From: Bacteroidales bacterium
GTDB lineage: Bacteria; Bacteroidota; Bacteroidia; Bacteroidales; UBA932
Direction of reading: 5' to 3'
DNA: 37,646 nt
Assembly: GCA_017502125.1 (NCBI GenBank)
Contig: JAFVVN010000024.1
Span: 1 to 37,646, forward strand
A program made the position numbers and the translations under genes. A model generated the notes under the pieces. That model worked only from the letters and a program-made list of their open reading frames with translations. It did not search any database and was not told the origin of the DNA. The stretch's first letter is position 1, and every line of letters begins with the position of its first letter. Shown piece by piece: positions 3,271 to 28,575 of the stretch.

Positions 3271-4137
3271 ATGAAAAGAGTACTTATTCTCATAGCAGCG
3301 GCCCTGATGCCGATATTTGCTTCGGCACAGGCACAGATCAACACCAAGAAGGTTCAGATCGGCGACTTCACAGAAAAGACGACCAAGGTGGTCCTGACTG
3401 GCAACATGTTCTATGACGGCACTCTACGTGACGAGATAGTGGCAAGATGGAATGTTTCCCCATATGAATTCTGCACATTACAGGAATTCGAGCAGCTCAA
3501 GTCCAGCGAGGAATATTACTTCCTGCTGAGCACTAAAGGCCAGTTCAAGAAGGAGGATGAGCCGGGTCTCATGTTCCTGACCCTCGTAAAGGGAGGAAAA
3601 AAGGCAGAAGGGGGAATAGATGACATGCTGGAAATCGTCTCACTTCCGATTGCTTCCGCCGAGGATCCATCCGGCAGGGAGACTGTGTTCTTTGCGGCAT
3701 TCCTGAACATCATCCAGGCCTACGCCGTGGAGTCGACAGAGAAGGACATCAGCGCATATACCGGACTTACCAACTACTCGCTGAACCTTTCAAAGACCAA
3801 GGACATGACCATCGTTTTCGCGGAAAACGACCTCAGTCCGAAGGTGACCGACAAGGAGAAGCAGCTGTACTTTGACGAGGAAATCATTGTCACTGACGAG
3901 GACTCTGCCGACGACCATATGATTGACAATTCGGACAGGGCGGTCGTAAGCTATGTGGTGGCACCCACAGAGGCATCTACCGGTTCATACTGCTATAAGA
4001 TGCTGATAGACAACCAGTCCCACATGCTGTATTACTTCAAGAAGCATAGGATCACAAAGAATACTGGAGTCGGCTTCCTGCCGGAAGACATCAGAAAACT
4101 GGCATCTTTCCGCACCAAGCAAGCTTCTGCAAGATGA
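3271..4137 (+). CDS. Secreted protein of unknown function
   Basis: I do not recognise a named family. The product has 288 residues and begins with a clear Sec signal peptide (MKRVLILIAAALMPIFASAQAQ, cut probably after ASA), so it is exported to the periplasm or surface. The rest is a mixed soluble sequence with an acidic segment near residues 195-220 (YFDEEIIVTDEDSADD) and no membrane segment. The start at 3271 is preferred over the ATG six bases upstream because the AGGAAAGG ribosome-binding site (3257-3264) is well spaced only for the later one. Its last four bases overlap the M16 protease start (ATGA), so the two are translationally coupled and may act together outside the cytoplasm. Confidence 0.75.
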   Translation: MKRVLILIAAALMPIFASAQAQINTKKVQIGDFTEKTTKVVLTGNMFYDGTLRDEIVARWNVSPYEFCTLQEFEQLKSSEEYYFLLSTKGQFKKEDEPGLMFLTLVKGGKKAEGGIDDMLEIVSLPIASAEDPSGRETVFFAAFLNIIQAYAVESTEKDISAYTGLTNYSLNLSKTKDMTIVFAENDLSPKVTDKEKQLYFDEEIIVTDEDSADDHMIDNSDRAVVSYVVAPTEASTGSYCYKMLIDNQSHMLYYFKKHRITKNTGVGFLPEDIRKLASFRTKQASAR

Positions 4138-5393
4138 TTACAGGAAAGACAGACTGCGGGCTGCAATATGCCGTCAGAAAGAGGATATCCTCAGTCGCCT
4201 ACTGCGCTCTGAGCATCAAATGCGGGACAAGGGACGAGGAAGGGTATCATGGGGGCATTGCACATTTTGTGGAACACACCATATTCAAAGGCACATCAAG
4301 AAGGAGCGCCACAGTGATAAACGGCTATCTGGACAGGCTTGGAGGTGAACTGAACGCTTTCACGACCAAAGAGGAGATTGTGCTCCACGCCACCGTCCTG
4401 AAGGAGGACCTGGGCAAGGCGGCCTCGCTTCTTTTCGAACTGGCCACGGAGGCAACCTTTCCCGAGCATGAAATCCAGACAGAGAAGGGAGTGGTGATTG
4501 ACGAGATACGTTCATATAAGGACAGCCCGTCAGAAGACATATACGACAAGTTCGAGGAGATGCTTTTCGAAGGTCATCCTCTCAGCGGGAATATTCTCGG
4601 AACTGCAGCCTCGGTGAGGAAGATCAGCCCGGAGGAACTGAGAAGGTTCGTCAAGGAAAAGTTTCTCCCTCACAGGATGGCTTTCACCGTTGTAGCTGAC
4701 ATCGAGGAGGCCAGAATGGAGAAGGAGGTCAGGAAGATAGTGGACGGGGTGTTCGGGAAGTCCGGAGAGACTGAACTGTCACAGAATAAGGACCGCCTAT
4801 CCACCAAGGGGCCCACTGCCTCGGACGTACCGGCACACAGAAGATTCGACATCACATTGAACAAGCGGAATCACCAGGCCAACTGCACGATCGGAGGGCT
4901 GGCCCCGTCACTTTATCAGGAACGCGACAGACTTGCCACGGTGCTGATGTGCAACATACTCGGAGGACCGGCTAACAATTCCCGTCTCAATTCAGTGCTC
5001 AGGGAGAAGAACGGATGGGTCTACGGAGTGGAATGCGGATATACGCAGTACGCAGACACCGGAATAGTCACCATCAGCCTCGGATGCGACAAGGCCAATG
5101 TGGACAGATGTCTCAGGGCAATCAGAAAGGAACTGGACAAGCTGCAGAACGAGACCATGTCAGACAGGAAGCTCAAGGCAGCCAGGAAGCAGCTTCTGGG
5201 ACAGCTTGCCATCAGCGGTGACAACGGGGAGACACAGTGTCTGTCCATGGGCAAGAGTCTGCTGGCATTCGGAAAGATTGCCGGCAGCGAGGAGAACAAG
5301 GAAATGGTGGAAGGAATCACGGCAGAGGACATCAGACGGATGGCCCGGGAGATCTTCGCACCGGAGAGACTGTCTCAGCTGATATACATTTAG
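4134..5393 (+). CDS. M16 family zinc metallopeptidase
   Basis: Processing-protease-like member of the insulinase/pitrilysin (M16) family. The inverted zinc motif HFVEH (HxxEH, residues 44-48) is intact, with the downstream acidic ligand region TEKGVVIDEIRSYKD, so the active-site half is present. The 419-residue length fits a bacterial single M16 subunit with an N-terminal catalytic and a C-terminal M16C domain; the latter includes LNSVLREKNGWVYGVECGYTQYADTGIVTISLGC, and the Arg/Tyr segment is usual in this family. No signal peptide is visible, so it is probably cytoplasmic, in contrast to the secreted protein it overlaps. Substrate unknown. A hairpin follows the stop. Confidence 0.88.
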   Translation: MITGKTDCGLQYAVRKRISSVAYCALSIKCGTRDEEGYHGGIAHFVEHTIFKGTSRRSATVINGYLDRLGGELNAFTTKEEIVLHATVLKEDLGKAASLLFELATEATFPEHEIQTEKGVVIDEIRSYKDSPSEDIYDKFEEMLFEGHPLSGNILGTAASVRKISPEELRRFVKEKFLPHRMAFTVVADIEEARMEKEVRKIVDGVFGKSGETELSQNKDRLSTKGPTASDVPAHRRFDITLNKRNHQANCTIGGLAPSLYQERDRLATVLMCNILGGPANNSRLNSVLREKNGWVYGVECGYTQYADTGIVTISLGCDKANVDRCLRAIRKELDKLQNETMSDRKLKAARKQLLGQLAISGDNGETQCLSMGKSLLAFGKIAGSEENKEMVEGITAEDIRRMAREIFAPERLSQLIYI

Positions 5394-5460: not shown

Positions 5461-5498
5461 CTTACGGTAAAGGATTGACTTGCAGATAGTTGGATATT

Positions 5499-6188
5499 AT
5501 GGAAGAGATATATGAATATATAGAGAGCCATGCTACAAGGCCTGACGAGGCTCTGGAATGGGTGATAAGACAGACGCATATCAGGACCAATCATGCCAGG
5601 ATGCTGTCCGGAACGATTCAGGGGCAGCTTATCAGGATGATGGCAGGGACTTCCGGGGCCAAACGTATCCTTGAACTCGGCACATTCACCGGATTCTCTG
5701 CAATATGCCTTGCTTCAGGACTTCCGGAAGACGGTCATCTTGACACTCTGGAGCTGAACGACGAGCTGGAGGACCTGATTCTGGAAGGCTTCGAAAGGGC
5801 CGGACTCCAGGACAGGATATCCCTCCATATAGGAGACTGCAAGGAGACTCTCAAAGGGCTGCGGTCAGACATGGGACTGCCTGCGGAACCGGATGGGGAG
5901 GTCCATGAGGCTGAAAACACCGGGCTTCTCTACGATATGGTATATATGGACGCAAATAAGCGCGAATACTGCGAGTACTATGATCTGGTGTTCGACATGG
6001 TGCGTCCGGGAGGCCTCATACTTGCCGACAATGTGCTCTGGGACGGCAAGGTGTGCAGGAATCCCCTTCCTCAGGACAAGCAGACCGTGAGCATAGCAAG
6101 GTTCAACGACATGGTCAGTGCAGACCCACGGGTCGAAACAGTCATACTTCCCCTTCGCGACGGGCTTAACATCATAAGGAAAAAATAA
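5499..6188 (+). CDS. Class I SAM-dependent O-methyltransferase (COG4122-like)
   Basis: S-adenosylmethionine-dependent methyltransferase of the caffeoyl-CoA/catechol O-methyltransferase type. Visible motifs: SAM-binding motif I ILELGTFTGFSAICLA, the acidic motif II end DTLELND, the LLYDMVYMDANKREYCEYYDLVFDMVRPGGLILADNVLWDGKV segment with the metal-binding Asp and DN pair, and a C-terminal LPLRDGLNIIRKK, a typical ending. 229 residues, the normal length. An in-frame TTG lies nine bases earlier, but ATG 5499 is the likelier start. Its stop overlaps the next start by one base (TAATG), so it is coupled to the IclR regulator. The substrate cannot be named. Confidence 0.88.
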   Translation: MEEIYEYIESHATRPDEALEWVIRQTHIRTNHARMLSGTIQGQLIRMMAGTSGAKRILELGTFTGFSAICLASGLPEDGHLDTLELNDELEDLILEGFERAGLQDRISLHIGDCKETLKGLRSDMGLPAEPDGEVHEAENTGLLYDMVYMDANKREYCEYYDLVFDMVRPGGLILADNVLWDGKVCRNPLPQDKQTVSIARFNDMVSADPRVETVILPLRDGLNIIRKK

Positions 6189-6949
6189 TGATTCAGGTCA
6201 TTCATAGAGCATTCGATATTCTGGAATATCTGTCACAGGACCCCAAAAGGGAGTTCAGTCTGGGAGAGATAGCAGCCTACACCGGACTGAACAGCGGGAC
6301 ATGTGCCAACATCATGAAGACTCTCGTAAGGAGGAACTATGTCGTGCACCTCGGGGTGAAGAAGGGCTACAGGATAGGCATCATGCCTCTGATCATCACA
6401 GACAACGATGCCTACATCCGCCTGCTCGCAAGTGCATGCAAGCCTCCTATGAATGCCTTATGTTCCGAGATAAACGAAATCGTCATACTCTCCGTGGTCA
6501 GACACAACAGACGTTTCCTGGTCTATCAGACCAAGAGCACCCATGAAATCCAGGCCACGACCACTCCGGAACAGTCCGTGTACAAGGCCACGACAGCCAG
6601 GATGATCATCTCATCATACAACAACGCCAGACTCGAGAAACTGGTGAAGGATGTCGGTCTTCCTCAGGAATCCGAGTGGCCGGAGATCAAGACATTCAAG
6701 CAGCTCAAGGAAGCACTCTCTGACATACGCGAGAACAGGATGGCCTTCGGCTGGGACCAGTTCGATGTGGTCAGCCTGGCAGTTCCTGTGGAGATCAACG
6801 GAAGCACGGTGGCTTCGGTCGGGATATATCTTCCGGCCTGCCGATATACTGAAGAAGTGATGAAGGTCTATGAGGCAAAACTCCGCGAATGCGCCCACTT
6901 CATCAACGAAATCGGTCTGAAGCGCAACCTGTTTGTTACTGAATATTGA
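6188..6949 (+). CDS. IclR family transcriptional regulator
   Basis: DNA-binding regulator with an N-terminal winged helix (residues about 1-65: IHRAFDILEYLSQDPKREFSLGEIAAYTGLNSGTCANIMKTL) and a C-terminal GAF-like IclR effector domain (about 75-250), including the GWDQFDVVSLAVPVEINGSTVASVGIYLPACR stretch. 253 residues, the family's usual length. IclR proteins usually bind small organic acids or aromatic compounds and control nearby catabolic or transport genes. Here the only coupled gene is the O-methyltransferase upstream, so it may control its own operon. It meets murA tail to tail: the two stop codons are directly adjacent, with no terminator between them. Confidence 0.9.
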   Translation: MIQVIHRAFDILEYLSQDPKREFSLGEIAAYTGLNSGTCANIMKTLVRRNYVVHLGVKKGYRIGIMPLIITDNDAYIRLLASACKPPMNALCSEINEIVILSVVRHNRRFLVYQTKSTHEIQATTTPEQSVYKATTARMIISSYNNARLEKLVKDVGLPQESEWPEIKTFKQLKEALSDIRENRMAFGWDQFDVVSLAVPVEINGSTVASVGIYLPACRYTEEVMKVYEAKLRECAHFINEIGLKRNLFVTEY

Positions 6950-8263
6950 TTACTGCCGGGTGATTCGGGCACCGAGGGCGTTCAGACGAAGGTCAATATC
7001 CTCATAACCTCGGTCGATCTGGTCTATATTGCTGATCACGCTGGTTCCCTTGGCAGACATGGCAGCAACCAGAAGGGCGATACCCGCTCGGATATCAGGA
7101 GAAGACATCTGGCCGGCACGCAGCTGATAGCGGTGATCGTGACCGATGACGACGGCCCTGTGAGGGTCGCATAGGATTATCTGGGCACCCATGTCTATCA
7201 GCTTGTCCACAAAGAAAAGACGGCTTTCGAACATCTTCTGATGAATGAGCACACTGCCCTTGCACTGGGTGGCTGTCACCAGTATGACACTGAGGAGGTC
7301 AGGAGAAAGACCAGGCCAAGGAGCATCCGCTATATTCAGGATGGAACCGTCGAGGAAGGATTCTATGACATAGCTTTCCTGCTCAGGGACGAAGATGTCG
7401 TCTCCCCTGCGTTCCAGATTGATCCCAAGCTTGCGGAAGGCCTCGGGAATCATTCCAAGCTCATCATATGCCACATCCTTGATGGTGAGTGAACTGCGGT
7501 TCATTGCAGCCAGGGCTATGAACGATCCGATCTCGATCATGTCGGGAAGAATCCTGTGTTCGGTTCCTTTGAGGCTATCCACACCGGTGATGGTCAGGAG
7601 GTTAGACCCAAGTCCTTCAATCTTGGCACCCATTCGGACAAGCATGCGGCAGAGCTGCTGCACATATGGCTCGCAGGCTGCGTTATATATGGTGGTCACT
7701 CCCTTGGCAAGGGTGGCGGCCATCAAGATATTGGCAGTACCGGTCACAGAGGCCTCATCCAGAAGCATATATCTGCCTGTCAGCGTCTTTCCTTCCGGAA
7801 CATGAAGATAGAAGGCTTTTCTGCTCTGGTCATACTCCTGTTCCGCACCGAGATTCATGAATCCGAGAATATGGGTATCCACCCTGCGACGGCCTATCTG
7901 GTCGCCTCCCGGCTTTGGGAAATATGCCCTGCCGAAACGTGCCAGAAGGGGTCCGACCACCATCACGGATCCACGGAGCTTGGCACACTTGGCCACAAAA
8001 TCAGCGCTTGCAACATATTCGGTGTCTATTTCATCGGCCTTGAAGGTATATACTCCCTTATCCAGCCTCCTGACCTTGACTCCCATTCCCTCCAGAAGAA
8101 GGATGAGGTTCTTGACATCAAGAATCTCCGGAATATTGGAGATAGTAACCTCCTCATCAGTCAGAAGAACAGCACTGATGACCTCCAGCGCTTCGTTTTT
8201 TGCACCCTGCGGTCTGATGGCACCGTTCAGCTTATGTCCGCCCTCTACAATGAATGAACTCAT
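6950..8263 (-). CDS. murA: UDP-N-acetylglucosamine 1-carboxyvinyltransferase MurA, Asp variant
   Basis: First committed enzyme of peptidoglycan synthesis; transfers enolpyruvate from phosphoenolpyruvate to UDP-GlcNAc in the cytoplasm. The KNEALEVISAVLL start of the EPSP-synthase fold, VVGPLLARFGRA, RRRVDTHILGF and the C-terminal IDQIDRGYEDIDLRLNALGA are diagnostic. The catalytic loop reads PGGDQIG, so the Cys that fosfomycin alkylates in E. coli (Cys115) is Asp (about residue 121). This change is known from other lineages with natural fosfomycin tolerance and seems usual in this phylum. The start at 8263 has an AAAGGAG ribosome-binding site; an upstream in-frame start would add an unrelated 35 residues. 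437 residues, normal length. Confidence 0.95.
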   Translation of the reverse strand: MSSFIVEGGHKLNGAIRPQGAKNEALEVISAVLLTDEEVTISNIPEILDVKNLILLLEGMGVKVRRLDKGVYTFKADEIDTEYVASADFVAKCAKLRGSVMVVGPLLARFGRAYFPKPGGDQIGRRRVDTHILGFMNLGAEQEYDQSRKAFYLHVPEGKTLTGRYMLLDEASVTGTANILMAATLAKGVTTIYNAACEPYVQQLCRMLVRMGAKIEGLGSNLLTITGVDSLKGTEHRILPDMIEIGSFIALAAMNRSSLTIKDVAYDELGMIPEAFRKLGINLERRGDDIFVPEQESYVIESFLDGSILNIADAPWPGLSPDLLSVILVTATQCKGSVLIHQKMFESRLFFVDKLIDMGAQIILCDPHRAVVIGHDHRYQLRAGQMSSPDIRAGIALLVAAMSAKGTSVISNIDQIDRGYEDIDLRLNALGARITRQ

Positions 8264-19492: not shown

Positions 19493-20953
19493 TCATATTT
19501 CATCAATCTCCTGAACACCGTTGCGTGTCATGGTTATACGGAACTGATGATATTCCACCTCACCATCATGCTGAAGCTGGAAAATTATATGCACGTGATA
19601 TATCTTCTGGATGGAATATGTGGTGAGACTGTCATCCTCGTCAATAGTGTCTATCGGCACTTCTGCATTGTCCATCTTATGGGTGAAGCGGTTCAGGTGC
19701 AGACGCATGATCTCATTGATTCCTCGCATGGGATATTCCGCATTTCTGGCCATAGCTGCATCATCTATGATTACATGCTTGCGGTAAAGCATAACCTTTT
19801 CCTCGAATATCCTTGATTCATCCTCCACGGAAGAAGCCCTGTCACGCATATTCATGACCACTGCAGGGGTCCTTGACTTGGATATGAAGTCGAAACCTTC
19901 CTTGATCACGCCCACCTTATTGTTTCCTATGGTCACGGAGGCTTTCTTGTCGAAGTACTTGTCACCCAGACGATGGGCGAAATAATAACGCAGGAGGTCC
20001 TTTATACGGTCCTTCAGCATATAGCTCACCACCAGGACGACAAAGAGAGGCCAGGTGATGTTTCCGTAACGGACCTGAGTGTGCCAGGCCACTGCGGTGG
20101 CAAATATCATGGCCACACCAGCCGCAATACTATAATATATCTGCTCGACCGCAACGCCGTCCCTTTTCTTGTCTAGACTGATATAGAGCTCGCTTTCTAT
20201 GAACTTCTTGAGCATTCCATGGTGATATACAAGGGCTCTGTCATGGTCCGGATCGCCATTCAGACGGTCGTATCCCCGCATCGCCATGTATTCCCTTTCA
20301 CCGGCCAGAAGTCCGGCAAAGGCCTTTCTTATGCGGACAAGCGAAGCCGATTCGGATGAGGAGTCTACCACCTTGATGAGACGGACGGTCCTCATTTCCA
20401 CGACATGGCTCATGAACTCGTCACAAAGGCGGAAATAGCTGCGGGTCCTGTCCGACACAGTGGGAACATCGATGATCTTGTACAGGTCACGGAACCTGCT
20501 CAGTACCAGTTTGGCATTTCCGACATAGTCATCGACCAGATACTCTGCCGAATCCAAGGACCTGACCGACCTCAGATGCGACGCATGGTCACGCAGGGCG
20601 CTCTTGAATATCGCCGCAAACATCTTGAGATGATATTCATATGAGTCCAGGTCACTCTGCTGAGGGGTCGTCACTACCCTTTCCAAAGCCTTCTTCAAAG
20701 AGGTCAGAGGCATGGAAGTCTCCTGGGCTATTTCCCTCAGGAGATATACCGGAGTGATAAGACGTACATTGGACTTCACATCCCGGTAGAACTGCTTCTT
20801 TCCGTAGTTTTCAGGGTTGATGTCCAGACTGTTGGGCACGAACATCCAGGCGTTCACGGAAAAGTCATCCTTGACGCCGTTCTCCTTGCAGTTGAATCCG
20901 AACTTGAACTCGACCGAGAAGTTATCGTGTTTCTTTGCCTGTATCGATATCAT
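19493..20953 (-). CDS. Conserved-looking membrane protein of unknown function
   Basis: I do not recognise a named family. The 486-residue product has no signal peptide. It has a long N-terminal cytoplasmic part (about 1-275, mostly helical, with LRSVRSLDSAEYLVDDYVGNAKLVLSRF), then two neighbouring membrane segments (about 278-297 IAAGVAMIFATAVAW and 303-320 ITWPLFVVLVVSYML), and a C-terminal soluble part with charged motifs such as RHVIIDDAAMARN and MTRNGVQEIDEI. It looks like a membrane-anchored cytoplasmic protein. The coding bias resembles its neighbours, so it is not obviously transferred. Its upstream gap is filled by a repeat, and no consensus promoter was found there. Confidence 0.7.
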   Translation of the reverse strand: MISIQAKKHDNFSVEFKFGFNCKENGVKDDFSVNAWMFVPNSLDINPENYGKKQFYRDVKSNVRLITPVYLLREIAQETSMPLTSLKKALERVVTTPQQSDLDSYEYHLKMFAAIFKSALRDHASHLRSVRSLDSAEYLVDDYVGNAKLVLSRFRDLYKIIDVPTVSDRTRSYFRLCDEFMSHVVEMRTVRLIKVVDSSSESASLVRIRKAFAGLLAGEREYMAMRGYDRLNGDPDHDRALVYHHGMLKKFIESELYISLDKKRDGVAVEQIYYSIAAGVAMIFATAVAWHTQVRYGNITWPLFVVLVVSYMLKDRIKDLLRYYFAHRLGDKYFDKKASVTIGNNKVGVIKEGFDFISKSRTPAVVMNMRDRASSVEDESRIFEEKVMLYRKHVIIDDAAMARNAEYPMRGINEIMRLHLNRFTHKMDNAEVPIDTIDEDDSLTTYSIQKIYHVHIIFQLQHDGEVEYHQFRITMTRNGVQEIDEI

Positions 20954-20972: not shown

Positions 20973-21108
20973 CTCCTGGGCTAGAAGAGCCCGTGCGGAG
21001 GTTCCTAACGCCCCAAAGGGGCCGGTCCGGGCAGGGCCGAAATCCCCCTGACAGGGGGCAGGGGGTTAGGAGGCTTTATACTCCTGGGCTAGAAGAGCCC
21101 AGGAGTAT
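20973..21108. repeat. Hairpin repeat cluster overlapping the DASS transporter stop
   Basis: CTCCTGGGCTAGAAGAGCCC occurs twice in direct orientation (20973-20992 and 21081-21100). In the second copy the flanks extend it to a near-perfect hairpin of 13 bp (TACTCCTGGGCT / AGCCCAGGAGTA) around AGAAG. Between them are further stems: GCCCC/GGGGC and CCCCCTG/CAGGGGG. The second hairpin contains the stop codon of the transporter gene, so it may be its terminator, although there is no T-run. Confidence 0.7.
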
Positions 21109-22699
21109 ATCCTAACCAGTGCAAAACTGTCTCACCCCAAACCATTATCATAATCCATGCTATGACCATCATGGTGATACCGAATTTGAAGGTGTCGCTC
21201 CAGCTGTAGTGGTTTGTAGTATATAGCAGCGCTGCCGGCTTGCTGTTGAACGGCAGCACGTAAACGTGTTCAATCAAAAGGGACACAGGGAACGAGAGGC
21301 TGAGCGGCGGAAGGCCGAACTGCTGCTCGACACCTATGGCGATTGGGACGAATACCAGCGCCCTCATGTTCTTCGACTGGAAGATCAGCGCGCTGAAAAG
21401 CATGAGTCCAGTGAGGAGTATATACAGAACGATGAACGGTGTATCCGCAGTGATGCCCATCGCGTCCATTCCTGCGCCTACCATCATGGCAGGAAGGTCG
21501 GTGGCATTTAGGCCGGATCCGATCACATAGGCACCTGCTGAGAATATCATAAGGTGCCAAGGGATATCGACGTCGTTCCACTTCACGACACCGATTCCAG
21601 GCATAAGGGCGATGATGGCACCGATAAGGACCACCACCTCAGCCGAAACGCCGTGCCAGCTTTCGGTCACCCACATCACGAGCACACCTACGAATATGGC
21701 TATTGACTTGAACTCCTCTTTGGTCATCTTGCCCATAGAATTGAGTTCCTGACGGAGGCGTTCCATTCCGCCCTCGATCTGAGGTTTCTTTTCTTCCGGC
21801 TTGAGAGGGAATATAACCTTCACTCCGATGAACCAGCCGATAAGAAGCAGGATCATTGCGAGAGGGAAAGCGGCAGCCAGCCAATCCGAATAAATCATTG
21901 TGACTGAGCTATATGCACCTGTAAGAAGCGAGATTGCAAGGAGGTTTGCACCAGAGCCGGTCATGAAGGCGCTCGCTCCTACATTGATCTGGAAAAGGTT
22001 CTGGAGCACAAGGTTGCGTCCGAAGTTGTTGCGGTTGCCCTGGCTTGCTCCGAAGATGGCTGCCACTACCATGAATATAGGAAGAAGGATGGTGGCCTTC
22101 ACGGTGGTAGCCGATATGAACATTGACAGGACGACATTGATGACAAGGAAGCTGAAGAATATGCCGCTCGCGCTCTTTCCGAACTTAAGCACGAACCACA
22201 GGGCGAACCTCTTGGCAACCCTTGTCTTGACAAGCATGCTGGCAAGAACGAATGACAGGATGTTGAGCCACATCACCGGATGTCCCAGCTGTGCAAAGGC
22301 ATCCTTCTGAGTGGTCACGCCGCACAGGATCACTGCCATGATCACCATGAGTGAGGTCAGATAGCTCTGCACCGCCTCTGTGATCCATAGTACGATGGAT
22401 GCACAGAATATGGCAAGCATGGCATAGCAGGCCCTTATGAAGGCTGCTTCACCGATGACGTTCAGCCTTGCCTGAGCCTTGCCCGACAGTCCGGAAAAAT
22501 CCATATTGTCGAAGAGCGGAATGTCCACCACCCAGTAGATGAGGATGAAGACAAGGGCCGCTATCGGTCCTCCAAGGCGTGCCATCCACTTCTCGAAGCC
22601 GGATTTCTCCATCTTCGGGAGCTTCTCCACCTTATAGTTGTTCATATCCAGCGGGTCGAAGACCTGCTCCTGGTTCAGTTCTGTGTTCTTGTCGGTCAT
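21089..22699 (-). CDS. DASS/SLC13-like anion transporter
   Basis: Inner-membrane protein of 536 residues with about 11-13 hydrophobic segments, from GPIAALVFILIYWVVDIPLF to FGITMMVIAWIMIMVWGETVL. Order and spacing fit the divalent anion:sodium symporter family (ArsB/NhaD superfamily), which takes up dicarboxylates, citrate, sulfate or phosphate. The two SNT motifs that bind sodium and substrate are altered: the first half reads SATTVKATILLP, the second IFQSKNMRALVFVP. Substrate and even sodium coupling are therefore uncertain. The last seven residues (GYTPGLF) are encoded by the repeat hairpin. It is downstream of the CYTH gene in the same direction, with a 126-base repeat-containing gap. Confidence 0.8.
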   Translation of the reverse strand: MTDKNTELNQEQVFDPLDMNNYKVEKLPKMEKSGFEKWMARLGGPIAALVFILIYWVVDIPLFDNMDFSGLSGKAQARLNVIGEAAFIRACYAMLAIFCASIVLWITEAVQSYLTSLMVIMAVILCGVTTQKDAFAQLGHPVMWLNILSFVLASMLVKTRVAKRFALWFVLKFGKSASGIFFSFLVINVVLSMFISATTVKATILLPIFMVVAAIFGASQGNRNNFGRNLVLQNLFQINVGASAFMTGSGANLLAISLLTGAYSSVTMIYSDWLAAAFPLAMILLLIGWFIGVKVIFPLKPEEKKPQIEGGMERLRQELNSMGKMTKEEFKSIAIFVGVLVMWVTESWHGVSAEVVVLIGAIIALMPGIGVVKWNDVDIPWHLMIFSAGAYVIGSGLNATDLPAMMVGAGMDAMGITADTPFIVLYILLTGLMLFSALIFQSKNMRALVFVPIAIGVEQQFGLPPLSLSFPVSLLIEHVYVLPFNSKPAALLYTTNHYSWSDTFKFGITMMVIAWIMIMVWGETVLHWLGYTPGLF

Positions 22700-23965: not shown

Positions 23966-24592
23966 TTACATTTCAGGAGTGTGAGTAAGATCGAGTACCT
24001 TTGCACCGTTTTCAGCGCCTTTGGTAGGAAGAGCGAATGCGAAGTCACCTGTTCCGTTTGGTACACGCGAGAAAGAATATTCCTTTTTTTCAAGATAACC
24101 TTTTACCTGATTCCAACCTGCACCTTCACTACCTCTCTTGAACTCGCTGAGTTTCTCGTTATCAGCATTGTAAAGTTCGATGAACACATTCTTCTTTCCT
24201 GAAAGGCCACCTTTAAACTTGTGGTTCTCGCTCTCATATTCATAGTTAGGATCACCACCTTCATCCACGTCAGCAAGATCGGAGCTCTCAAGAACCACAT
24301 AACCATTGGCAGCAATCTTCATACCGGCCTTACCTTCCCATGTCGTAGACTTTCCACCATCCTTAGTTGAGTCATACTTTACAAGGTATACACCTTCAAG
24401 AGAGACCTCCTTGTCTGTAGCGTTGTAAAGCTCAATATACTTTTCCTCACCTGAAAGCTCGTTAAGAACAATACCTGTAGCCTTGGTTTTATCGCCATCT
24501 CCATTACCGCTACCGTCGACTGTAGGGTTCTCCTTGTTACATGCAACGAGTGCAAATGCAGCTGCAGCTGCGAATACGAAAAACTTTTTCAT
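23966..24592 (-). CDS. Lipoprotein with lamin-tail domain
   Basis: Exported lipoprotein of 208 residues. MKKFFVFAAAAAFALVAC gives a lipobox with the lipid-bearing Cys18. A flexible Gly/Asp/Asn stretch follows (DGSGNGDGDKTKA). Then comes a lamin-tail-domain pattern: TGIVLNELSGEEKYIELYNATDKEVSLEGVYLVKYDSTKDGG, AANGYVVLES, GKKNVFIELYNADN, and EYSFSRVPNGTGDFAFALPTKGAENG. Bacterial lamin-tail domains are immunoglobulin-like surface modules, often next to nucleases or phosphatases, and are thought to bind membranes or other macromolecules. It lies 40 bases after the porin, so the two are probably co-expressed at the outer membrane. An upstream in-frame start is rejected because it would hide the signal peptide. 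Confidence 0.78.
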   Translation of the reverse strand: MKKFFVFAAAAAFALVACNKENPTVDGSGNGDGDKTKATGIVLNELSGEEKYIELYNATDKEVSLEGVYLVKYDSTKDGGKSTTWEGKAGMKIAANGYVVLESSDLADVDEGGDPNYEYESENHKFKGGLSGKKNVFIELYNADNEKLSEFKRGSEGAGWNQVKGYLEKKEYSFSRVPNGTGDFAFALPTKGAENGAKVLDLTHTPEM

Positions 24593-24632: not shown

Positions 24633-26057
24633 TTAGAATGCAACCTGGAAACGGCATGCAAGCATATGATAGTCGATACCTGAACCGCTTACAATATCTC
24701 CCGGATAATAAGTCACGTTGCCCGAAGCATCATAACCTGTTCTGTACTGAGGCTTATCCCTTGAAACCATGTCCGTACCGTCCTGAGCGCCCTTACCGTT
24801 AGCAAAGATATCGTTGTCGTTGTACTGGTAGTTGATGACAAACTTCACATTCTTAGTTACATGGAAATTGAGACCGAGAGAATAAGCATATGCTGAACCA
24901 CCCATACAGTATTTCGAGATATTCAGGTCGCAATACTCCACTCTTGCACAGAGTTCGATATCGCCCCACTCCTTACCGGCATTTACGCGAGTATACTTTG
25001 CTCCGCCTGCATCATAGTTCTGGCTTCCGCCGAAGAGAAGGTAACCAGCCTGAACATACCATCCCCAAGCCGGCTTGATGTCAGTGATCTGGCTCTTTGA
25101 TGCATCAACGTATGGAAGACGAGCGATGTATGCACCTTCCCAACGGAGACCTTTCCAGTGACCGGCAAGCTCTGCAGTCCAAGCAAGTTCGTGGTCAAGA
25201 TACTTGATTGCGTCAGTGTCCAGGAACTTCTTGCGGTTCACAGATGTAGTGTTACGTGTGCTGTAGCGCACTGCGTTGTAACCGTCTGTTGATGAAGTCT
25301 TAGGATTTCTGTAAGAAACAGCTGCTCCGATGTGGAGGGAAGCGTCCTTCATCTTGTGAAGCGGACGATAAACGATCTTACCAGTATATGACATTCCGCA
25401 GTTCAGACCATAGTCCTTGTTTCCATCCTCAATAGCTGTTTGAGTCTCAGCATCCTCAAGAGCCGGTCCGAAAGCACCTGCGCTGACCCAGAGAGCCGGC
25501 ATGGAGTACTTTACGTTGATACCAAGGTGGCGCGAAGGAGCAAGATAAGTCACCATAGGGCGCTCCATGAACTGGAGATAACGCGATGTGGTGTTTCTCT
25601 GGATAGAGAAATTCTCCTTGAAGTTACCGATCTTGATTTCAAGACCCTTTACTCCGGTGAAACCGATGTAGGCATCCTTGATTTCAGGAGTACCGCTGGT
25701 CCAGTCGGTGTCGAGCTCTCCGTACCAGTTCTTGTCAAGCTGTGCCTTCACGGCAAAACGTGCACGACGGATGTTCATGCCGTTACCGATCTGTGTCAGG
25801 TTCTTGTCGTAGCCGAAGAATACGGCTGCATCCCCCTGCACACGTACGTCGAACCACATCTTGTAGTTCTGGTTCTTGTTCTGGAACACAAGGATTCCGT
25901 CCTGTACAGTTGCATCAACTGGATATGAGTTCACCTTCTGTCCATACTGATTGACTTCAGTCTGCACTGCCTCACTCTGCACCGCTTCAGTCTGCTGAGC
26001 AAATGCAGCGAATGTTGCAGAAAAAGTCAAAAGCGAAATTAATAATACCTTTTTCAT
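24633..26057 (-). CDS. Outer-membrane porin of the phosphate-selective OprO/OprP family
   Basis: Beta-barrel porin of 474 residues. The signal peptide is MKKVLLISLLTFSATFAAFAQ; it is followed by a Gln/Glu/Val-rich stretch with TEAVQSEAVQTE, then the family barrel: MNIRRARFAVKAQLDKNWYGELDTDWTSGTPEIKDAYIGF, IKIGNFKENFSIQRNTTSRYLQFMERP, alternating aromatic strands and the terminal FQVAF ending in Phe, the BAM recognition signal. The name comes from Pseudomonas OprP; the selectivity of Bacteroidales members is not proven by sequence. Presence beside PiT- and PhoU-like genes makes an anion or phosphate role plausible. The gap to the upstream gene is 31 bases. Confidence 0.88.
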   Translation of the reverse strand: MKKVLLISLLTFSATFAAFAQQTEAVQSEAVQTEVNQYGQKVNSYPVDATVQDGILVFQNKNQNYKMWFDVRVQGDAAVFFGYDKNLTQIGNGMNIRRARFAVKAQLDKNWYGELDTDWTSGTPEIKDAYIGFTGVKGLEIKIGNFKENFSIQRNTTSRYLQFMERPMVTYLAPSRHLGINVKYSMPALWVSAGAFGPALEDAETQTAIEDGNKDYGLNCGMSYTGKIVYRPLHKMKDASLHIGAAVSYRNPKTSSTDGYNAVRYSTRNTTSVNRKKFLDTDAIKYLDHELAWTAELAGHWKGLRWEGAYIARLPYVDASKSQITDIKPAWGWYVQAGYLLFGGSQNYDAGGAKYTRVNAGKEWGDIELCARVEYCDLNISKYCMGGSAYAYSLGLNFHVTKNVKFVINYQYNDNDIFANGKGAQDGTDMVSRDKPQYRTGYDASGNVTYYPGDIVSGSGIDYHMLACRFQVAF

Positions 26058-26088: not shown

Positions 26089-27723
26089 TTATATGGATTT
26101 GATAAAATTCACAAGGTTGTCTCCTCTGGTAAGCCCAAATTTCTGCCGCAATCTATATCTGCTTATCTCCACGCTCTTCGGGGTTATATTCATCAGGGTC
26201 GCTATATATTTCGATGAAAATCCCAGTCTCAGCATAGCTGCAAGCCTTCTTTCCTGTTGAGTCAGGTCTGGAAAATTCTCTGCCAGCTTGGCGTTGAAGT
26301 CTTCATGAAGGGATTCTGCCTGAGAATAGAAATATTGGGCGTCGACTTCCCTGTCGTGGGAGAGTCTCTGCATCAGAGAAGACCTTAGCTCTGCAATCAG
26401 ACCATCCTTTTCCGCAAGGTCGTCCGTCTTGGCCAGTTTCTCAGCTATCTCGCTCAGCGACTCAAGATATCCCCTCTGTTCCACTATGCTCAGTGCTACA
26501 TTCATGACCTCCTGGCGTTTCATCTCCACGGCATTGTGCAAGGCCTGGTTCTCCGACAGGACCACCTTGAGTTCCATATCGTTGAGTGCCCGGCTGTGCT
26601 CGTATATCTGCTGCTGCTGAGCATAAACGAGCCTGTTGGTCGCCTCACGCTGGCCACGCTGCCTTTGCAGATACCCTAAGAAGAACATTGCAGCAAGGAT
26701 TGCAGCTGACACCGCCATGACAGCAAAATCATCAAGCTGCTCCTGCGGGTCAATATCGATTATGAAGAGAAGGACATAGGTCACAAGAAACGAAGCAAGC
26801 GGGGCAAGGACGTACACAAGAAGTTCCTTCCAATACTGCACATTATCCACAAGCGGCGACTTCTGAGCAAGCTCCACACCGGCGACAGCCGACATCACCA
26901 GCATCGAAACCGACAGCGGTACCGGGACAAGCCCCACAACGGATGTCGTCAGCTCGAACGAGAAGAACAGGAGAACAAGAGCAACCGAAAAACCGACCGC
27001 AACCACAGCATATATGGAAAAATCCGCGAACATTCCGGACTGTTCATCTGCGTCAGTCCTTCCGGCCCTGGAAGCCATAGGCATAAGCAGGATAACAGAC
27101 AACAGGACGACAAGAAGGACGCTCATCCTGCCGACACCACAGATCAGAGTCCCGAGCCCCATAAGAAAACCTCCCCAGTTAAGCCCCAGGGCAAAGGCAG
27201 CAAGCACCACCCCGCAAATCACGGCGAAACGCATATAATATGACAGCGAAACGAGGTGGATTCCTGACCTTCCGATGAGCATCCGCTGCAATCTCCTCAG
27301 CAGAAAGGCGAGGACAAGCGTGACAAGCGGAGCCACAAGGACAGAAATGACGGCCGGCAATCCGAAGGAGCCGTCACCTGCAGACATGGATAAAGCCAGC
27401 AGGGACCCTATAAGGGCGTAGACTGCCGAACCGCGCATGGAGAACAGTTTAAGACATGCCAGAACCATAAAGGATGCAAGCAGCATGATCAGGAGTGCCG
27501 TGTAGTCTATTTCCACATCTGGCAGGGACTGGGACACCATGAAAGATCCATAATGGAAATCCACAATTACACCAGAAAGCACTGCAGTCAGGATTATGAA
27601 AGGAAAACGGGACCGCCTCACCGCGCATGTGGGGTAATACACCCCGAAGAAACTGTCGAACTCATTGATATAGAACCAGAGAACGGCAGCAGTCACAAGC
27701 AATATGAGGCAGAGGACATTCAT
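26089..27723 (-). CDS. Membrane protein with degenerate PiT-like domain, coiled coil and LuxR-type HTH
   Basis: 544 residues in three parts. Residues 1-350 contain about ten membrane segments. I see weak motif-level similarity to Bacteroidales PiT phosphate permeases: FDSFFGVYYP (22-31), SRFPFIILTAVLSGVIVDFHYGSFM (38-62), LKLFSMRGSAVYALIGSLLALS (91-112) and VPLSVSMLVMSAVAG (268-282), where transporters read FDxxxGxxND and PLSTTYV. The Asn-Asp pair that binds phosphate is missing, so transport is unlikely. Residues 352-470 are a coiled coil (QQQQIYEHSRALNDMELK). Residues 475-544 hold the HTH seen in Bacteroidetes one-component regulators (FPDLTQQERRLAAMLRLGFSSKYIATLMNITPKSVEISRYRLRQKF). I infer a membrane-bound transcription factor. 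It is two bases from the DUF47 gene. Fusion is by sequence; the PiT origin needs a profile search. Confidence 0.72.
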   Translation of the reverse strand: MNVLCLILLVTAAVLWFYINEFDSFFGVYYPTCAVRRSRFPFIILTAVLSGVIVDFHYGSFMVSQSLPDVEIDYTALLIMLLASFMVLACLKLFSMRGSAVYALIGSLLALSMSAGDGSFGLPAVISVLVAPLVTLVLAFLLRRLQRMLIGRSGIHLVSLSYYMRFAVICGVVLAAFALGLNWGGFLMGLGTLICGVGRMSVLLVVLLSVILLMPMASRAGRTDADEQSGMFADFSIYAVVAVGFSVALVLLFFSFELTTSVVGLVPVPLSVSMLVMSAVAGVELAQKSPLVDNVQYWKELLVYVLAPLASFLVTYVLLFIIDIDPQEQLDDFAVMAVSAAILAAMFFLGYLQRQRGQREATNRLVYAQQQQIYEHSRALNDMELKVVLSENQALHNAVEMKRQEVMNVALSIVEQRGYLESLSEIAEKLAKTDDLAEKDGLIAELRSSLMQRLSHDREVDAQYFYSQAESLHEDFNAKLAENFPDLTQQERRLAAMLRLGFSSKYIATLMNITPKSVEISRYRLRQKFGLTRGDNLVNFIKSI

Positions 27724-27725
27724 GT

Positions 27726-28373
27726 CTACAAGGTTCTGCGTATCGCCATCACAGCGAGCTGGTCAGCAACGTTTTCAGCGGCCTTCGACAGGTTCTCGAT
27801 ATGGAGGGCAAAATATCTCAGATGGAATTTCTCACTGAGCTTTAGGGACGGCATGTTATGAAAAACAGTCCTTTTGATGGTCTGAGAGTACTTGACAGCC
27901 TCCTTTTCATAGAAATATGCCCTGCTGATCTTGTCAGGAACAGTCTCGGGAGCCTTGAAATATGCCTTGGCAGCCGGCACTACCGCTTCAACTGCAAGAG
28001 TCGAGAATTCGGTGAGCTTAAGAAACTCCTGATTGAGTTCCGAAGGTATGAAAGGGGTTTCGATTTCAAACTGGAGAAGACTTTCGCTCAGAATATCGGT
28101 GATATTCCTTGTCTTCTCGAAAAGCCTCATGATGTCGGCACGTGAGCGCACCAGAGCAGTCTGGGTATACAGCGCATTCTCTATCTCACGCCTCAGCACA
28201 CTCGACTCACTGTCCAAGGAGGACATACGCATAAGATTCTCGTTGAAACCGTCTGAATTGGAATACAGATAATTTCTCACTCCCTCCTTAAAGACCAGCA
28301 CCGCCTGATCCATAAGATCGAAATATCTGTCGATATCATCTATAAGTTTATCTGCTTTCTTGCGTCCGAACAT
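27726..28373 (-). CDS. DUF47 / PhoU-like protein
   Basis: Helical cytoplasmic protein of 215 residues, the usual length of DUF47 (PhoU_div) proteins, the accessory partners normally encoded next to PiT phosphate transporters. It begins MFGRKKADKLIDDIDRYFDLMDQAVLVFKEGVRNYL, then SLDSESSVLRREIENALYTQTALVRSRADIMRLFEKTRNITDILSESLLQFEIE, where the E(x)xxD and RxD/E patterns form the metal-binding helices, and ends in HIENLSKAAENVADQLAVMAIRRTL, the repeated PhoU-like helix. The first gene of the cluster, two bases ahead of the PiT-like HTH gene. An in-frame upstream extension is not needed, because MFGRKK matches the family start. Confidence 0.87.
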   Translation of the reverse strand: MFGRKKADKLIDDIDRYFDLMDQAVLVFKEGVRNYLYSNSDGFNENLMRMSSLDSESSVLRREIENALYTQTALVRSRADIMRLFEKTRNITDILSESLLQFEIETPFIPSELNQEFLKLTEFSTLAVEAVVPAAKAYFKAPETVPDKISRAYFYEKEAVKYSQTIKRTVFHNMPSLKLSEKFHLRYFALHIENLSKAAENVADQLAVMAIRRTL

Positions 28374-28397: not shown

Positions 28398-28405
28398 CAA
28401 ATATA
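28398..28405 (-). promoter_or_regulatory. Probable -7 element for the DUF47-PiT cluster
   Basis: TATATTTG on the minus strand matches TAnnTTTG, 24 bases before the DUF47 start. No clear -33 TTTG was found. The remaining gap up to dapF (28406-28575) shows no gene or strong hairpin. Confidence 0.45.
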
Positions 28406-28575
28406 AGAAAAATTGCGTTGTAGAGGAACACCTATGACTTAAGACACTTTGGAAGAGTCCCTGCAAATACTGGCCTAAAACCTTAGTACACAAGATATTG
28501 CCCCCACAATATCAATTATGGAATTATATGTCGTAGAGAGTTATTGTAGAGTTTTTTGTAGAGGAAGACAGGGAG

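Follow-up and report, generated by a model that had tools for sequence, protein, structure and literature searches.

A degenerate PiT permease fused to a coiled coil and a LuxR-type DNA-binding domain, a probable membrane-tethered regulator of its own operon in Bacteroidales

A gene in the window (the whole stretch of 37,646 nucleotides of Bacteroidales DNA analysed here) encodes a protein in which a degenerate PiT-type permease is joined to a coiled coil and a LuxR-type helix-turn-helix (HTH), with a DUF47 gene as its operon partner. An earlier note, made from the sequence alone, had proposed this architecture, which is confirmed here, and its core reading now gains a set of intermediates, a porin, a lipoprotein and a candidate operator. 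I consider it likely that the window protein regulates transcription as a one-component system tethered to the membrane, with a former permease of the PiT family as its sensor, that it responds to an oxyanion (probably phosphate), and that it regulates its own expression. This suggests that a nutrient pump has been remade, in a gut bacterium, into a sensor that governs its own genes. The protein and its parts are as follows:

26089..27723, reverse strand: window protein, 544 aa, consisting of a PiT-derived membrane domain, an extra helix, a coiled coil and a LuxR-type HTH (from the ORF, Pfam, alignment and hhalign)
26758..27723, reverse strand: PiT-derived membrane core, residues 1-322 (hhalign)
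26671..26733, reverse strand: extra transmembrane helix, residues 331-351 (hydropathy of PiT C-termini with and without a fusion)
26284..26658, reverse strand: predicted coiled coil or helical linker, residues 356-480 (conservation, and a long helix in a low-confidence model)
26128..26265, reverse strand: GerE, the LuxR-type HTH, residues 487-532 (PF00196, E 8.3e-7)

The open reading frame is complete from ATG to stop. The only Pfam family above cut-off in the protein is the GerE domain at the C-terminus (29 bits, cut-off 23.5), which bears out the HTH that had been read there, and hydropathy gives ten hydrophobic helices in the same chain as this DNA-binding domain, the architecture of a transmembrane transcription regulator (TTR). 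Searched alone, the window protein has no PHO4 match in Pfam, is absent from the NCBIfam matches to CysP (NF053884), and finds no PiT chain in the PDB by phmmer, where its matches are weak (E 0.088 or worse) and nearly all to HTH proteins. AlphaFold models built from ten-row alignments were both poor (pLDDT 52.7 and 42.9), and Foldseek searches with them returned nothing at E 0.001 or better.

A single sequence without a Pfam or PDB match for its membrane half might be taken to come from another transporter family, its likeness to PiT motifs being accidental, but the profile comparisons make this scarcely credible. By hhalign, the membrane part aligns at 99.7% (P 1.6e-25) over 341 colinear columns with the order's fused and NN-type PiTs and at 94.5% (P 7.5e-8) with canonical PiTs, using a clade profile of 30 rows from which L166, L133 and L138 were omitted. 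The fused and NN-type PiTs in turn align with canonical PiTs at 99.9%, and four controls with reversed columns reached 0.5% at most, and a chance resemblance of motifs was rejected on this ground. An earlier run of 21 clade rows against a 38-sequence PiT set gave 94.9% (P 4.7e-8; reversed control 0.1%); that set contained one wrong ORF (P_L068), and the 94.5% comparison was made without it. Furthermore, one relative from the same clade, L058 (genome G044), passes PHO4 on its own (44.1 bits, cut-off 33.7) as well as GerE (36.3 bits, cut-off 23.5), while two others fall below the PHO4 cut-off (L062 with 23.9 bits, L134 with no match). A profile search of the membrane half thus returns PiT, and the proposal that residues 1-350 are PiT-like stands, with residues 1-322 forming the aligned core.

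The membrane half is under purifying selection. The comparison of the window protein with L001, for which dS is close to saturation, gives dN/dS values of about 0.12 (membrane part), 0.035 (coil) and 0.06 (HTH); between L002 and L004 the corresponding values are 0.18, 0.02 and 0. Of the 400 genomes searched from the genus, 84 match a profile of the membrane part (A3, 20 homologues), and none of the matches listed has an internal stop; on this ground and with dN/dS well under 1, a pseudogene was rejected for the window protein. In the clade member L141 (G268, about 3308-4927), a stop separates the membrane half from the half containing the coil and HTH.

What remains of the permease is best seen at the two PiT signatures:

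27661..27666, reverse strand: N20-E21, first PiT Asn-Asp position (alignments; second residue acidic in 33/33 clade rows)
27175..27180, reverse strand: N182-W183, second PiT Asn-Asp position (alignments; Asn in 32/33 clade rows)

The earlier note had the first Asn-Asp pair replaced by Tyr-Pro, but this was a misregistration. FDSFFG (residues 22-27) aligns with the AANIFG part of signature 1, so the equivalent of the Asn-Asp pair is N20-E21, which precedes it, and not Y30-P31, which lies about ten residues downstream of the true position. Here the Asn is retained and the aspartate (the D28 position of PiT2) has become Glu; the joint alignment has Glu or Asp in every clade row, and at the second pair only L126, with Ser, departs from Asn, some of the 33 rows being near-copies of each other. 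In signature 2, the His and Asp (the H502 and D506 positions of PiT2) are L179 and W183, and the PxSTTH-type motifs have been lost in the lineage of the window protein. D28, D506 and H502 are reported to be critical for transport by human PiT2 (PMC3126765). The loss of signature residues is suggestive of binding without translocation.

Behind the PiT core, residues 331-351 (334-352 in the scan) form a further hydrophobic helix, which is preceded by an acidic loop and followed by a basic stretch. Seven of eight fused tails have such an extra helix beyond the last one of the PiT (for L160 the tail segment examined ends too early), as do three of the four tails taken from the degenerate clade (in L058 the hydropathy scan does not separate it), and it is absent from four short-tailed unfused PiTs (L168, L170, L171 and L172), from L093 and from three canonical PiTs. 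The termini of human PiT are extracellular, so with one more helix the HTH would face the other way; judging from the sequence, the extra helix should put it in the cytoplasm. The unfused L159 and L169, each in a DUF47 operon, have an extra C-terminal helix without an HTH and are possibly remnants of fusions or steps towards one.

The window protein is the second gene of an operon whose other members are:

27726..28373, reverse strand: DUF47 (PhoU_div), first operon gene (PF01865, E 2.8e-6)
24633..26057, reverse strand: Porin_O_P outer-membrane porin, third operon gene (PF07396, E 3.7e-34)
23966..24592, reverse strand: LTD-domain lipoprotein, probable fourth operon gene (PF00932, E 3.6e-10)

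As had been noticed before, the DUF47 gene ends two bases ahead of the ATG of the window protein. In the clade of the window protein, DUF47 is present in 36/36 loci and the porin in 35/36, L140 ending at a contig edge. Of 20 loci drawn from across the order, 13 carry a fused PiT (described below), one (L166) has a degenerate protein in a complete operon, and six have an unfused PiT with DUF47 (L159 and L168-L172), the porin occurring in one of these (L168). DUF47 lies ahead of all 13 fused PiTs and the porin behind 11, with L160 and L162 stopping at contig edges. An LTD gene lies behind the porin in five of six fused operons scanned (L153, L154, L155, L158 and L164); in the sixth, L163, an ORF 1.4 kb away has no Pfam match. 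Downstream of the operon in the window, on the same strand, is a gene for a DASS/SLC13 sodium:anion symporter (21089-22699), and a 486-aa protein at 19493-20953 has no Pfam family above cut-off. The genome that contains the window (78% complete) has two PF02690 Na/Pi proteins, no PHO4 match and no PstB above cut-off. PHO4 is matched in 43/151 genomes of the genus, a few of the matches being the degenerate proteins themselves, and a canonical PiT co-occurs with the degenerate protein in some genomes, such as G023 and G063.

The fused PiTs found elsewhere in the order are proteins of about 580-630 aa that combine near-intact PiT motifs (GANDAAN, PVSTSQ, GANNIAN and VPVSSTQ) with the same coil and HTH as the window protein. 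One of them, L146, matches PHO4 at E 3.3e-64 and TmPiT (6L85) at E 5.6e-27. Among the four scanned for GerE, L145 and L150 pass the cut-off and L146 and L147 lie just under it. The first Asn-Asp pair is present in 11/12 rows (K-D in L153), PVST/PVSS motifs are retained, and the second pair is NN. Across the order, the A3 profile matches 35/295 genomes, some weakly, and the full domain order of PiT, coil and HTH was found, among the matches listed, in 24/393 genomes with a profile built from an 11-row alignment of fused PiTs (A5; matches from 1-2 to 579-580), so the domain order proposed earlier recurs in Bacteroidales; in the 13 fused loci described above, DUF47 lies beside it. One of the 24 has an internal stop (G571), and two further matches are partial (G870 and G756). 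At the level of the class, the matches listed for A5 include one that is full-length and fused (G1038, 2-578) among the 395 genomes drawn. Many other A5 matches in both order and class span the HTH part alone, because this HTH module is common to many other proteins of Bacteroidia. The fused gene with the internal stop, L157 (G571, 5493-7325), is split by one in-frame stop and has intact relatives elsewhere.

A tree of the coil and HTH (55 rows, including eight other LuxR-type proteins, cut with a profile built from the degenerate clade) recovers the degenerate clade as monophyletic (35 rows, support 100/95) with the fused PiTs L162 and L164 as its sister (96/82). Both fall inside a 44-row group (100/97) that is separate from the other LuxR-type proteins, and three more distant fusions (L160, L165 and L167) lie outside this group. 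On the evidence of this tree, the lineage of the window protein is nested within the fused PiTs. Membrane-domain trees alone did not place the degenerate clade with either fused or canonical PiTs, since grouping with the main fused group (p-AU 0.49) and grouping with canonical PiTs (p-AU 0.56) are both accepted.

These relationships can be read as a history. In an ancestral DUF47 - PiT - Porin_O_P operon, the PiT would have been extended at its C-terminus by one more transmembrane helix, a coiled coil for dimerisation and an HTH of the LuxR type, and the resulting fused permease, able to report its own state to DNA, would have persisted across Bacteroidales with its PiT motifs nearly intact. 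In the lineage of the window protein, the aspartate of the second signature would then have disappeared from the permease core together with the PxSTTH-type motifs, while motif 1 kept an acidic residue and motif 2 its Asn. Whether living species still represent this path, from a DUF47-PiT-porin operon whose PiT is unfused, through a fused and near-intact PiT that may both transport and regulate, to a form that has given up transport and retained the pocket as a sensor, the stages with an HTH having an operator for their own operon, is to my mind an evenly balanced question.

The operator in question is a short repeat ahead of the operon:

28557..28563, reverse strand: candidate operator CTCTACA, distal copy 1 (upstream motif scan)
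28545..28551, reverse strand: candidate operator CTCTACA, distal copy 2 (upstream motif scan)
28419..28425, reverse strand: candidate operator CTCTACA, proximal copy, directly upstream of the -7 box (motif scan, genome pattern scan)
28398..28405, reverse strand: -7 element TATATTTG, which I take to be of the Bacteroidales type (sequence; genome pattern match)

Within the 320 bases ahead of DUF47 (144 bases for L130), the 36 clade loci contain 65 forward copies of CTCTACA and one reverse copy, where 0.6 forward copies are expected. At least one copy is present in 30/36 loci, and an exact copy is missing from 6/36. For the shorter CTACA the counts are 85 forward and 8 reverse in these loci (11.6 expected), and 34 forward and 5 reverse in the 13 fused loci (4.9 expected), where its placement recurs at -189 to -207 (11/13) and at -96 to -105 (9/13). 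Seven unfused DUF47-PiT operons together have one forward and one reverse CTACA. Two or more copies are thus found in 12/13 fused versus 0/7 unfused loci, for which the Fisher p of 1e-4 is a guide only, as related loci are not independent. Most forward sites lie outside ATG-started ORFs of at least 100 aa (75/85 in the clade, 34/34 in the fused loci). The DNA ahead of 13 canonical PiT operons of the genus (for L027, ahead of the PiT itself) has 13 forward and no reverse CTACA against 3.6 expected, with two or more in 5/13 and one site extending to CTCTACA; however, 4079 of these 4160 bases and all 13 sites are in ATG-started ORFs, so this is a comparison with coding DNA and has little weight either way. 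The whole window contains six CTCTACA, 3.7 being expected.

The 2.34-Mb genome that contains the window has a single copy of the proximal arrangement, CTCTACA-N12-15-TANNTTTG, and this copy lies at the operon of the window protein. A scan of 32 other genomes, 29 being carriers by the A3 search of the genus, gives 12 matches, 10 at the operon by position, whereas the same pattern read backward has three. It is found at the operon in 9/29 carriers and is missing in 20/29, many of which have CTCTACA at another spacing. The only two matches away from the operon are G044:C84:13480 and G366:C2:110208. The very divergent loci L128-L132 (G440, G060, G062, G095 and G467) and L166 have DUF47 and the porin and no exact CTCTACA upstream; the operator may have drifted in them.

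Taken together, these patterns point to the CTCTACA repeats as a candidate operator to which the HTH would bind. The repeats might instead be owned by another regulator, with the HTH acting elsewhere or off DNA, given that their assignment to the HTH rests on sequence and that some clade loci lack an exact copy. I find this quite improbable: the repeats follow the HTH fusion, appearing in multiple copies ahead of fused but not unfused PiTs, none of the 13 canonical control operons has a CTACA outside an ORF, and the proximal pattern is unique in its own genome.

The window protein would most likely now sense without transporting: it would still bind an oxyanion, probably phosphate, and the PhoU-like DUF47 protein may take part in this. 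The state of the ligand would shift the coil, and a cytoplasmic HTH dimer on the directional CTCTACA repeats would control (activation being more likely) DUF47, the window protein itself, the porin and the lipoprotein. That the protein instead transports its oxyanion as well as regulating, the HTH reporting transport turnover, is very unlikely. The near-intact signatures of the fused relatives, the conservative nature of the D to E replacement in motif 1, and the lack of a PHO4 match in its own incomplete genome would favour such a dual role, but the second signature Asp is now Trp, the His position is Leu and PxSTTH is gone, which affects positions reported as critical in human PiT2, and the two PF02690 proteins of the genome could supply phosphate. 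It is also possible, though somewhat unlikely, that the membrane part is a mere anchor and that the cytoplasmic DUF47 protein reads the signal, binds the coil or the inner face of the membrane, and controls the HTH. The constancy of DUF47 in clade and fused loci, the position of the DUF47 gene phoU2 upstream of pitA in Staphylococcus aureus (PMC7326077), and the faster evolution of the membrane half relative to coil and HTH would all fit an anchor. Against an anchor stand the purifying selection that persists on the membrane half and the residues retained at the signature positions in 33/33 and 32/33 rows.

The sensed anion might be sulfate or another oxyanion rather than phosphate, which I regard as unlikely. 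Among the NCBIfam families, CysP matches the PiT part best in all five fused relatives scanned (E 1e-12 to 1e-25), although their scores of 47.5 to 87.5 bits are far under the 400-bit cut-off, and PitA is listed for only two of the five (E 1.1e-5 and 5.8e-4). The fused PiTs are thus nearer CysP than PitA while far below both cut-offs, and for this reason phosphate is called likely and no firmer. The sulfate permease CysP of Bacillus subtilis has its two aspartates replaced by Gly and Asn (PMC5840216), so that the NN pair of the fused proteins resembles its second signature. Against sulfate, the first aspartate, where CysP has Gly, is still present in the fusions and replaced by another acidic residue in the window protein, ten ORFs scanned in and around the fused operons include no sulfur gene, and the operon partners are DUF47 and Porin_O_P, which make phosphate the better guess. 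CysP is not known to carry an HTH.

Relative to PiT permeases (PHO4, TCDB 2.A.20; TmPiT 6L85; human PiT2), the window protein has in common the colinear core, two half-kept signatures and the DUF47 partner, but it is without the second signature Asp, the His and PxSTTH, and adds a C-terminal helix, a coil and an HTH. PitA of S. aureus is an unfused transporter, and its operon, phoU2/pitR-pitA, is not known to include an HTH or a porin. CadC and ToxR each combine a single helix with an HTH at the N-terminus, in contrast to the permease core, the total of about ten hydrophobic helices and the C-terminal HTH described here. What the window protein shares with these two is a sensor, a membrane segment and a DNA-binding domain in a single protein, and in the accessible part of a survey of transmembrane transcription regulators that covers this type no transporter-derived class was found (PMC10269533). 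The S. aureus operon, as reported, has the DUF47 gene directly ahead of the PiT gene, as here (PMC7326077). The nearest precedent is Ks-Amt5, a whole transporter recruited as a sensor, which is reported to bind ammonium without translocating it (PMC5764959); it has an Amt fold and a histidine kinase output, whereas direct DNA binding is proposed for the window protein.

Both parents of such a protein are therefore known, namely transporter-derived sensors linked to kinases and membrane-bound transcription factors with unrelated sensors, and I have not found their direct union in print. A literature search of titles and the starts of abstracts, with most subscription journals outside its range, gave no precedent for a PiT fused to a DNA-binding domain, in agreement with the earlier note, whose author knew of no described regulator with this architecture. 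The order-wide series would offer an ordered path from pump to switch together with a ready candidate operator, so that the conversion of transporter state into a transcription signal becomes testable with one gene and one promoter, and an oxyanion-sensing circuit can be proposed for gut Bacteroidales.

The full-length alignment of homologues of the window protein comprises sixteen sequences. Eleven related loci come from named MAGs; ten of these are labelled Bacteroidales, several of them being from ruminant guts, and one is labelled Burkholderiaceae. The contig with this last label (L011) contains a piece 62% identical to the window protein and is probably a case of MAG contamination.
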